A stretch of DNA of 64,000 nt from Halococcoides cellulosivorans. GTDB lineage: Archaea; Halobacteriota; Halobacteria; Halobacteriales; Haloarculaceae. Shown here in pieces: positions 22,866 to 25,619 of this stretch; position 1 is the first letter of the stretch; each line of letters opens with the position of its first letter. The stretch is taken from NCBI RefSeq assembly GCF_003058365.1, contig NZ_CP028858.1, forward strand, positions 1,240,001-1,304,000. The letters are read 5' to 3'. The notes under the pieces were generated by a model. That model did not search any database and was not told the origin of the DNA. It saw nothing but the letters and a program-made list of their open reading frames with translations. The position numbers were made by a program, and so were the translations under genes.

Positions 22866-23144
22866 TCAGTCTGTTTTGATGTCCAATAGGTCGCTGTTCC
22901 GGATCCAATCGAGATACTCGGCCAGCCGATCGGCCGACTGGAGCGCGTCGATCGTGTCGTACGATGCGCGCAGTTCGTCGTTGGAAAAGACGGTGTGGAT
23001 CTGGTCGTGACACGGCCGACACAGTTCGACGGTCGGGCTCTCGGCGCGCTCCTCGGGGCGGAGATGATGCTCCTGGATCACGCGTGGGTCGTCGATGCGG
23101 TCGTCGGGAACCACGCGACCACAGAGTTCGCACGTGGTGGTCAT
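22866..23144 (-). CDS. Small HNH-type zinc-binding protein
   Basis: A 92-residue protein with the HNH-nuclease layout. A first CELC pair is followed by IQEHHLRPEE (the catalytic-type His region), a second pair CRPCHDQIH, and a helical C-terminus. HNH proteins of this size can be nicking or restriction-type nucleases, or non-catalytic zinc proteins. It ends beside trxB's neighbour, and its 5' end faces the tRNA-Tyr 3'-end array, so a link with that array is possible but unproven. The ATG at 23144 is preferred to a longer frame, which would add 17 unlikely residues. Confidence 0.75.
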   Translation of the reverse strand: MTTTCELCGRVVPDDRIDDPRVIQEHHLRPEERAESPTVELCRPCHDQIHTVFSNDELRASYDTIDALQSADRLAEYLDWIRNSDLLDIKTD

Positions 23145-23224
23145 CTCGGTTGGCAATACGTGAGACAGCCACCTATGGATGGTGCCGACGGACACGTTCG
23201 ACTCCGATACGTCGTGACAGGGCT

Positions 23225-23245
23225 TCTGCTCACTTCGTTTGCAGA
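23225..23245 (-). repeat. Conserved-loop hairpin 1
   Basis: Stem TCTGC/GCAGA (extendable by a G-T and a C-G pair) around the 11-base loop, read on the minus strand as AAACGAAGTGA. It marks the downstream edge of the tRNA-Tyr array. Confidence 0.55.
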
Positions 23246-23285
23246 GGCTTGCTCACGGCTCACGAGTTCGCCGTTCGCATAGAAT

Positions 23286-23310
23286 CGAGGCCTCACTCCG
23301 TTCGGCCTCG
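23286..23310 (-). repeat. Conserved-loop hairpin 2
   Basis: Perfect 7-bp stem CGAGGCC/GGCCTCG around loop GAACGGAGTGA (minus strand). The stem differs completely from hairpins 1 and 3 while the loop is nearly the same. Confidence 0.6.
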
Positions 23311-23313
23311 CAG

Positions 23314-23334
23314 TCCGCCCTCCCCGATTTGAAC
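23314..23334 (-). repeat. tRNA-Tyr 3'-end copy a (A-type unit)
   Basis: Exact 21-base match to the 3' end of the intact tRNA-Tyr (23796-23816). It lacks the rest of a tRNA. It behaves as an attachment-site-like core. Confidence 0.8.
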
Positions 23335-23416
23335 ACCGGAAGACGACTCCGCTCGCTCCGCTCGCGGATTGCGACTTCCGAGCACGAAATCGGCTCGGTC
23401 GGATTTGCGTCGCAAA

Positions 23417-23437
23417 TCCGCCCTCCCCGATTTGAAC
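23417..23437 (-). repeat. tRNA-Tyr 3'-end copy b (B-type unit)
   Basis: Exact 21-base match to the tRNA end. Its outer side forms a 9-bp palindrome with the linker (23401-23419, GGATTTGCG-T-CGCAAATCC). Confidence 0.8.
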
Positions 23438-23564
23438 ACCGTGAGACGTTCCGGGCGTGCGGCGCGACGCGCCGTTCCGGGACTGCGACTCACGAGCTCA
23501 AATCGTGTCGGCTGTCCCTCACGGTCAACACCGTTCGCTATCGCTCACGGATATTGTAGTTCAG

Positions 23565-23585
23565 TCCGCCCTCCCCGATTTGAAC
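23565..23585 (-). repeat. tRNA-Tyr 3'-end copy c (A-type unit)
   Basis: Exact 21-base match. The following unit sequence is nearly identical to that after copy a, differing at a few positions. Confidence 0.8.
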
Positions 23586-23667
23586 ACCGGAAGACGCTCC
23601 CGCTCGCTCCGCTCGCGGATTGCGACTTCCGAGCACGAAATCGGCTCGGTCGAATTTGCGTCGCAAA

Positions 23668-23688
23668 TCCGCCCTCCCCGATTTGAAC
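23668..23688 (-). repeat. tRNA-Tyr 3'-end copy d (B-type unit)
   Basis: Exact 21-base match. About 100 bases after it are nearly identical to the unit at copy b. The unit then diverges and runs into the hairpin beside the intact tRNA. Confidence 0.8.
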
Positions 23689-23769
23689 GCCGTGAGACGT
23701 CCCGGGCGTGCGGCGCGACGCGCCGTTCCGGGACTGCGACTCACGAGCTCAAATCGTGTCGGTTGGATA

Positions 23770-23794
23770 TTTCTGCTCACTTCGTTCGCAGAAA
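23770..23794 (-). repeat. Conserved-loop hairpin 3 directly downstream of tRNA-Tyr
   Basis: Stem TTTCTGC/GCAGAAA around loop GAACGAAGTGA (minus strand), extendable with one bulge into the tRNA 3' end. Could act in tRNA 3' processing or termination, or be a repeated element. Confidence 0.6.
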
Positions 23795-23795
23795 A

Positions 23796-23869
23796 TCCGC
23801 CCTCCCCGATTTGAACGGGGGACAAGTCGATCTACAGTCGACTGCTCTACCAGTCTGAGCTAAGGGCGG
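23796..23869 (-). tRNA. tRNA-Tyr (anticodon GUA)
   Basis: Complete 74-base cloverleaf with discriminator and no intron. The acceptor stem is CCGCCCT/AGGGCGG, the D arm is GCTC/GAGC, the anticodon stem GTCGA/TCGAC has loop CTGTAGA (anticodon GTA), the T arm is CCCCG/CGGGG with loop TTCAAAT, and the discriminator is A. CCA is not encoded. Its 3' end is the template for the four partial copies downstream. Confidence 0.97.
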
Positions 23870-24416: not shown

Positions 24417-25619
24417 ATGCAGGACATCGTCCAGGAGGCGCTCGAACACGAGGAACAGGAAGAGCGGTCGGTGGACACCGACGTCGACGGGTTCGGTGAC
24501 CCACGGATCGTCATCGTCGGGTGCGGTGGCGCCGGCAACAACACCGTCAACCGACTGTACAATCTCGGTGTCGACGGCGCGGACACCATCGCGCTGAACA
24601 CCGACAAGCAGCACCTCAAGATGATCAAGGCCGACACGAAGATCCTCGTCGGCAAGTCCCTGACCAACGGGCTCGGTGCCGGTGGCGACCCCTCGATGGG
24701 CGAGCGCGCCACCGAGATGGCCCAGGGCACGATCAAAGAAGTGCTGGGCGACGCCGACCTGGTCTTCGTCACCGCCGGCATGGGTGGCGGGACCGGCACC
24801 GGTGCGGCGCCCGTCGTCTCGAAGATCGCCAAAGAGCAGGGCGCGATCGTCGTGGGCATGGTCTCGACGCCGTTCAACGTCGAGCGCGCCCGCACGGTCA
24901 AAGCCGAGGAAGGCCTCGAAGAGTTGCGCACCGAGGCCGACTCGATCATCGTCCTCGACAACAACCGCCTGCTCGATTACGTCCCGAACCTCCCGATCGG
25001 GAAGGCGTTCTCGGTGATGGACCAGATCATCGCTGAGACCGTCAAGGGAATTAGCGAGACGATCACCCAGCCGTCGCTGATCAACCTGGACTACGCGGAC
25101 ATGACCTCCATCATGAACCAGGGCGGCGTCGCGGTGATGTTGGTCGGTGAGACCAAAGACAAGAACAAGACCGAAGAGGTCGTCAAAGACGCGATGAACC
25201 ACCCGCTGCTCGACGTGGACTACCGCGGTGCGTCGGGCGGCTTGGTCCACATCACGGGTGGGCCCGATCTCACCCTCAAGGAGGCCGAGGGCATCGCCCA
25301 GAACATCACCGATCGGCTCGAAGCGGACGCCGACGTGATCTGGGGCGCGCGTATCCAGGACAACTACAAGGGTAAAGTCCGCGTCATGGCGATCATGACC
25401 GGCGTCAAGAGCGCCCACGTCCTGGGCCCGACCGCTCAGAAGCAGGCCAACAAGTCCCGCGCAGCGATCGAGGACGAAGAGACCTTCGACGCCAGCCAGA
25501 ATGTCGGCGGGCAGTCGAGCGGCCAGTCCGCCCCGAGCGCAGAGTTCGGCCAGACCGACGGCGGTCGCGAGACCGTCAATCGCACGAACGGCCTCGATGT
25601 CATCCGGACCGACGACTGA
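24417..25619 (+). CDS. ftsZ2: Cell division protein FtsZ2
   Basis: A 400-residue tubulin-family GTPase forming the division ring. The start ([17 protein letters not shown]) and the upstream RHH gene mark it as the FtsZ2 rather than the FtsZ1 paralogue. The GTP-binding loop is [11 protein letters not shown], the N-terminal nucleotide region is [19 protein letters not shown], and the T7 synergy loop lies near NLDYADM. The C-terminal tail ends in [10 protein letters not shown], a short peptide of the type common in haloarchaeal FtsZ. It is co-transcribed with cdrS. Confidence 0.96.

Follow-up and report, generated by a model that had tools for sequence, protein, structure and literature searches.

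Hairpin units with copied tRNA 3' ends behind tRNA genes of haloarchaea

The repeat array behind tRNA-Tyr in the window (the whole 64,000-nt stretch of Halococcoides cellulosivorans DNA analyzed here, NZ_CP028858.1, positions 1,240,001 to 1,304,000) belongs to a haloarchaeal family of tRNA-linked hairpin units, in which it represents tRNA-Tyr. All four units of the window harbor an arm complementary to the T-loop, a core hairpin and an exact copy of positions G53 to A73 of the upstream tRNA, which is encoded on the same strand. The original prediction dealt with one locus, but the units are actually present behind tRNA genes of at least 33 anticodons. No description of them was found in the open-access literature on tRNA 3'-end repeats, trailers, tRNA fragments and tyrT/RtT, and an earlier description elsewhere is possible.

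The array downstream of tRNA-Tyr

Because the tRNA-Tyr gene is on the minus strand, the array corresponds to its downstream region (Table 1). It is made of four hairpin units of about 90 to 100 nt each, and the 21 nt that they copy run from the T-loop to the discriminator base. The exact repetition of the last 21 nt of the tRNA at 23314, 23417, 23565 and 23668, which had been predicted, is confirmed, with about 3e-10 occurrences of an exact 21-mer expected by chance within 1.5 kb. The predicted A-B-A-B alternation with a duplication of about 250 bp holds as well: a 204-nt stretch is duplicated (23311-23514 and 23562-23765) with a spacing of 251 nt and an identity of 97%. Each unit forms one long hairpin, whose 3' arm is the T-loop sequence of the tRNA and whose 5' arm is CGATTTGAGC or CGATTTCGTGC, and the inner stems of A and B differ on both sides, as had been claimed (GGAAG/CTTCC versus GTGAG/CTCAC). 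The units have no covariance match to the tRNA model RF00005 and by this criterion are neither tRNA genes nor tRNA pseudogenes.

The inter-unit spacers of the window are 14 to 49 nt long and leave no room for genes. Several spacers (23767-23795, 23516-23564, 23286-23313 and their equivalents) are hairpins in their own right, with GNA loops and tandem G.A pairs, and similar hairpins are also present behind tRNAs without any copy. Just past the array lies a small ORF (22866-23195, minus strand) with a CxxC...CxxC arrangement and an HNH-like look (CELCGRVV..HHLRP..CRPCHDQIH), for which no Pfam match was found at 0.001. Divergent from tRNA-Tyr, a ribbon-helix-helix gene (PF01402; 24227-24415, plus strand) directly precedes an FtsZ-like gene (24417-25619, plus strand). 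No integrase was identified by Pfam in either of the array neighbors, the small ORF and the ribbon-helix-helix gene.

Table 1. Features of the tRNA-Tyr locus, in the order of transcription of the tRNA (window positions)
Feature	Position	Strand	Sequence features	Support
tRNA-Tyr (GTA)	23796-23869	minus	copied segment is the last 21 nt, GTTCAAATCGGGGAGGGCGGA	ARAGORN; Rfam RF00005
Spacer hairpin	23767-23795	minus	TTTTCTGCGAACGAAGTGAGCAGAAA, tandem G.A pairs, GAA loop	sequence
Unit B, tRNA-proximal	23668-23766	minus	5' arm CGATTTGAGC; stem GTGAG/CTCAC; loop motif AGUCGCAG..CGUCU; exact tRNA 3' end at 23668-23688	covariance model R1, 96.7 bits; fold z -5.1 as RNA
Spacer hairpin	23654-23667	minus	TTTGCGACGCAAAT	sequence, fold
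Unit A, first copy	23565-23653	minus	stem GGAAG/CTTCC; exact tRNA 3' end at 23565-23585	R1, 91.2 bits
Spacer	23516-23564	minus	hairpin type recurring in other genera	
Unit B, second copy	23417-23515	minus	exact tRNA 3' end at 23417-23437	R1, 97.7 bits
Spacer hairpin, second copy	23403-23416	minus		
Unit A, second copy	23314-23402	minus	exact tRNA 3' end at 23314-23334	R1, 91.5 bits
Distal hairpins without tRNA copy	23220-23313	minus	GCGAGGCC..GGCCTCG; CTGCAAACGAAGTGAGCAG	

Distribution among haloarchaea and among tRNA genes

A DNA search gave matches in 260 of 295 haloarchaeal genomes, with the best loci nearly all directly behind tRNA-Tyr. The search for relatives with a covariance model that had been proposed for this locus was positive: the model R1 has matches in 365 of the 394 genomes of the order, including 332 of 347 good genomes, and in 83 of 95 genera. 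In a phylum-wide draw, R1 matched 40 genomes, all of them haloarchaeal, from about 43 haloarchaeal genomes drawn, and gave no match among the roughly 200 other genomes of the draw. A sequence pattern combining core and T-loop, run against a collection of 84,980 species, was found only in Halobacteria among the 80 loci listed. The B cores behind tRNA-Tyr are alike across haloarchaeal families (alignment scores 0.85-0.89).

The units are not specific to tRNA-Tyr. We surveyed the regions around all 55 tRNA hits of the window genome (2.72 Mb, one contig), 13 of which belong to a tRNA cluster. Among the 42 non-cluster tRNA genes, 19 have at least one downstream copy of their own last 21 nt on the same strand, without mismatch in 16 cases, and upstream or antisense copies are rare. 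In this genome, R1 also matches behind genes for tRNA-Arg, Ala, Ile, Ser, Cys, Gly, Phe, Glu, Lys and Asp, and the arms and copied ends of these units belong to the respective tRNA. The same is the case in four other haloarchaeal genomes (G087, G121, G080 and G043), where Gly, Arg, Glu, Lys, Val, Asp, Phe, Asn and Leu genes are followed by up to four copies. In the fetched loci, 197 units correspond to 33 anticodons, this set being enriched for units by the way of sampling. Finally, when pattern matches were picked without reference to tRNAs, 95 of 122 lay 36 to 355 nt downstream of a tRNA on the same strand.

Some tRNA loci have an unusual organization. The region G000:C1:2635124-2637763 (L230) contains 13 tRNA genes in 2.6 kb on one strand, many of them atypical and low-scoring; this cluster differs from the scattered host tRNAs and is possibly virus-like or mobile. 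In another genome, two tandem tRNA-Tyr genes 88 nt apart precede the units (L024, G241:C20), an uncertain case with N in the assembly, and the sister genome has a single tRNA-Tyr gene (L030).

Anatomy and folding of the units

The units share a common plan: an arm complementary to the T-loop of the preceding tRNA, a core hairpin, and a copy of G53 to A73 that is usually exact. They lie on the sense strand of the tRNA, tens to a few hundred bases downstream. The limits of the copied block are given by the per-position identity between copy and tRNA, which is 0.37 at position 51, 0.84 at 52, 1.0 at 53-56, 0.86-1.0 at 57-72 and 0.88 at 73, and falls to about 0.5 just beyond; 67 of 93 copies are identical at 20 of 20 positions over 54-73. 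RNase Z cuts pre-tRNAs at base 73, where the block ends. To the left of G53, no conservation was found in 35 aligned units. The 5' arm is complementary to tRNA positions 53-63 only, with baseline values beyond. Moreover, the copies follow their own tRNA: where tRNAs of the same anticodon differ between genomes, the copy has the base of its own tRNA in 349 cases and that of the other genome in 4, and 43 of 45 minor alleles of a tRNA are found in its copy.

The core loop frequently contains the motif AGUC(G/A)CAG...(C/U)GUCU. A class I core is present in 146 of the 197 units; a class II core, CAGGGA...GACCGUGG, occurs in Arg, Gln, Met and Val units, and the remaining units have a GAGGUUCUG...CAGGUUCUC core or plain hairpins. 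The nearest core belongs to the same anticodon in 72 of 197 units, for 22.7 expected. Strong matches also exist between anticodons, for example Arg_tct and Gln_ttg of G000 (0.86) and an Ile unit and a Leu unit of another genome (0.84). In three loci (L007, L011 and L107), units are embedded in a tRNA fragment at the T-loop. A two-hairpin insert (CCTCGTGAGCG..CGAACGAGG followed by GCTCGGAAG.CG..CGTCTTCCGGC) was observed within tRNA fragments in these loci and in L002, either at the T-loop, as in Tyr and Phe fragments, or ahead of the T-stem, as in a Leu fragment of the window genome.

That the stems are under selection for folding had been suggested from the differences between A and B, and is supported by covariation across genomes and by strand-specific tandem G.A pairs. 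In the alignment of 35 units from the loci found by DNA search, 93.9% of the cells of the named structure are paired. Changes on both sides of a pair were counted in 65 cells, against 18.9 in shuffled alignments (0 of 500 reach 65) and at most 9 in slid controls, where the counted structure was drawn partly from the same 35 sequences and the shuffles are therefore not strict probabilities. Toward the 5' side of the inner stem AGUC.CAG, and toward its 3' side GUCU, are nearly or fully invariant, and a G-C to A-U covariation is found within the core motif. As single sequences, only the B copy next to the tRNA folds well below its shuffles (z -5.1, as RNA), with z around -1.4 for the A units, so that the case rests on comparison and not on one sequence.

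Hairpins in which Watson-Crick pairs close tandem G.A mismatches number 164 on the tRNA-sense strand of the units and 3 on the antisense strand; in the window, their cluster is on the minus strand, within the array. In the arm, Watson-Crick pairs are replaced by G.U in 68 of 540 opportunities and by A.C in 19 of 659 (Fisher p 9e-11). The strand bias of the G.A hairpins and the G.U excess of the arm both point to folding of the single-stranded tRNA-sense strand, which suits RNA and may suit single-stranded DNA as well. The core stem has no G.U excess (about 6 G.U for 7 A.C), which counts against RNA.

Candidate functions, origins and known analogues

Our first choice, held with somewhat less than even confidence and drawn from sequence and analogy, is that the units may be co-transcribed trailer RNAs with tRNA-like 3' ends. 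The units would form the trailer of the tRNA transcript, folding would take place in the sense strand, and RNase Z would cut after A73 of the tRNA and of every copy, giving hairpin RNAs of about 100 nt whose 3' end resembles that of a tRNA. The conserved internal loop would serve as a protein-binding site, and the acceptor strand would be kept exact because processing or tRNA-binding enzymes read it; alternatively, the copy would compete with the tRNA's own 3' end for the 5' acceptor strand. The product might either regulate its own tRNA in cis or have a role as an independent small RNA. The original prediction had proposed small RNAs with tRNA-like 3' ends, and the sharp boundary at the discriminator base appears to fit this idea. 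Trailer RNAs are favored by this boundary at the RNase Z site, by the folding of the sense strand, by the conservation of the Tyr core across families and by analogy with E. coli (see below), and also by the covariation, the conservation throughout haloarchaea, the position of tRNA-independent pattern matches behind tRNAs of the same strand, the sharing of minor tRNA alleles, the restriction of arm complementarity to positions 53-63 and the G.U excess of the arm. If the units are RNAs, many haloarchaeal tRNAs would have a dedicated and co-evolving trailer RNA, a new layer of tRNA biology.

Runs of T, which are no commoner after the last copy (43/156) than after the tRNA (51/156), count against trailer RNAs; a terminator after the last copy, suggested by G000, is thus not general. 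The presence of alike cores behind different tRNAs also counts against them and is expected of a mobile element. A switch between acceptor strands was rejected as well: folding favors the copy in 148 of 160 transcripts, but in 153 of 160 when the inserts are shuffled, so that the apparent support is a property of the energy model. Among substitutions in copies at positions 66-72, 11 retain and 16 disrupt pairing with the 5' strand, which is no clear sign of preserved pairing, and a mimic of the TyrRS minihelix (C1-G72, A73) was discarded, the outermost pairs not being conserved.

The nearest known analogue of the haloarchaeal units, as judged from their sequences, is E. coli tyrT/RtT. In E. 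coli K-12, tyrV has three downstream copies of its last 19 nt, at 159, 337 and 515 nt (178-nt spacing), with the annotated small RNA RttR and RF00391 matches in each repeat. In the E. coli repeat (NC_000913.3:1286700-1287240, L244), GGGGAAGGAT is exactly complementary to ATCCTTCCCC, a part of the copied tRNA end. Both systems thus have a complementary arm, a structured middle and an exact tRNA end, in tandem downstream of the tRNA, whereas the haloarchaeal units are shorter, lack CCA, have a different core and occur with more than 30 anticodons instead of one operon. RF00391 has no match to the units at the gathering score and none in the whole window genome at E<=1, with a positive E. coli control, and none in seven unit loci at E<=2; membership in the RtT family was rejected on this ground. 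By their plan, the units would be of the RtT kind, outside the RF00391 family. As RNAs, they would provide a second and far larger instance of the old E. coli tyrT/RtT puzzle for comparative study. Archaeal split tRNAs, tRNA introns and t-elements also have tRNA parts separated by structured RNA, but here a complete tRNA gene is present upstream.

Mini mobile elements are a serious rival to trailer RNAs, although we consider them rather unlikely. Non-autonomous circles or hairpins of about 80-130 bp would insert at the T-arm of the tRNA and bring a replacement 3' end (T-loop to A73), leaving the tRNA intact and turning the original end into the copy; the hairpin would act as a recombination site folded from a single strand, like those of integrons. 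In favor of this rival, the copied block has exactly what it takes to restore a tRNA, cores behind different tRNAs can be similar (the two scores given above), some units lie inside a tRNA fragment at its T-loop, and strand-specific folding fits single-stranded DNA equally. However, a recombinase with an attP of this type was not found, the hairpin is missing from SNJ2-type elements, the units carry no cargo, and the Tyr core looks old and conserved while the copy is still exact. Furthermore, the lack of conservation left of G53 means that no core-type recombinase site is visible. If mobile, the units would be a class of elements of about 100 bp, carried by tRNA genes, that fold on one strand and re-make their arms from the target.

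Arrays of integron cassettes resemble the units in being arranged in tandem beside a fixed site, with variable attC hairpins of which one strand folds, but there are no gene cassettes here. The integron R box (RYYYAAC..GTTRRRY) is absent from the aligned units: a purine is needed after GTT, whereas 35 of 35 have GTTC in the 3' arm, and GTTCAAAT has an extra C relative to GTTRRRY. The PATEs, SMRs and MITEs of Haloquadratum (PMC3119063) are, like the units, short non-coding palindromic repeats of haloarchaea. They are dispersed, however, and tRNA 3' ends are not among their features in the parts of that article covered here. No terminal repeats or target duplications of the PATE, SMR or MITE kind were seen in the units.

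As a wider proposal, put forward only as a cautious possibility, the units may form an undescribed genome-wide class in archaea, of structured RNAs or single-stranded DNA recombination sites behind many tRNA genes, matched to each tRNA by the arm and by an exact duplicate of its 3' end. The pre-tRNA would then have two interchangeable 3' ends, and the unit could control its maturation or supply tRNA-specific small RNAs. Whether RNAs or mobile elements, the units complicate the annotation of tRNA fragments and attachment sites.

A passive origin is improbable. Slippage and gene conversion could create and homogenize direct and inverted tRNA fragments devoid of function, and the local duplication of arrays (97% identity for the 251-bp duplication in the window) and the tracking of the own tRNA by the copies agree with it. 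Such a process would not be expected to yield a single core motif, stems that covary, a family confined to one order or folding of the sense strand only, and a 21-nt tract is short for homologous conversion. A target-site duplication of the Cas1/casposon kind would account for exact copies and leaves both the T-loop-complementary arm and the conserved core unexplained.

The original prediction also noted that integrases use this part of tRNA genes, and such elements are indeed found: in G266, G106 and G162, an element of 11-20 kb lies between tRNA-Tyr and its units. These elements end in a tyrosine-recombinase gene, with Phage_int_SAM_1 above the cut-off and Phage_integrase just below. Their attR begins at CGGGGAGGGCGG and the distal junction is only CGGGGAGGGCGGA. 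Identity in attR starts within the T-stem strand, at CGGGGAGGG, and covers 13-14 nt, whereas the units start at G53 and cover 21 nt. Related integrases precede units with Tyr, Arg and Ala ends in other genomes; a unit follows a short attR in 8 of 30 loci fetched with an integrase as query, and integrase relatives are present in 235 of the 295 haloarchaeal genomes searched. The attachment site of IntSNJ2 consists of 14 nt at the acceptor end according to a review (PMC8371274), in agreement with the elements found here. SNJ2-type elements thus use the same tRNA ends (att being the last ~14 nt of tRNA genes), but differ from the units in being large, in encoding an integrase, in having a hairpin-free attP and in their shorter copied block.

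It is very doubtful that the array is a scar of repeated integration with loss of cargo, as had been suggested, whether by SNJ2-type or other tyrosine-integrase elements, and in its simple form this origin is unsupported. Three points speak for it: the integrases are frequent, they insert precisely at the 3' ends of tRNAs (Tyr, Ala and Arg among them), and each unit also reproduces the short attB perfectly. It is largely refuted by the attP arms, which have no A- or B-type hairpin, unit-like hairpins being absent from both ends of the tRNA-Tyr elements of the three genomes; the start of attR in the T-stem strand and the insertion of elements between the tRNA and pre-existing units also speak against it. 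The units were thus rejected as attP relics, and the insertion of elements upstream of them, together with the hairpin-free attP, indicates that they are older than the elements. Decay of copies that an inserted element has cut off from their tRNA was also considered, and no difference was seen in a small sample. A use of att sites similar to that of SNJ2 was observed at the recombinase loci L004, L018, L020, L033-L035 and L265-L294.
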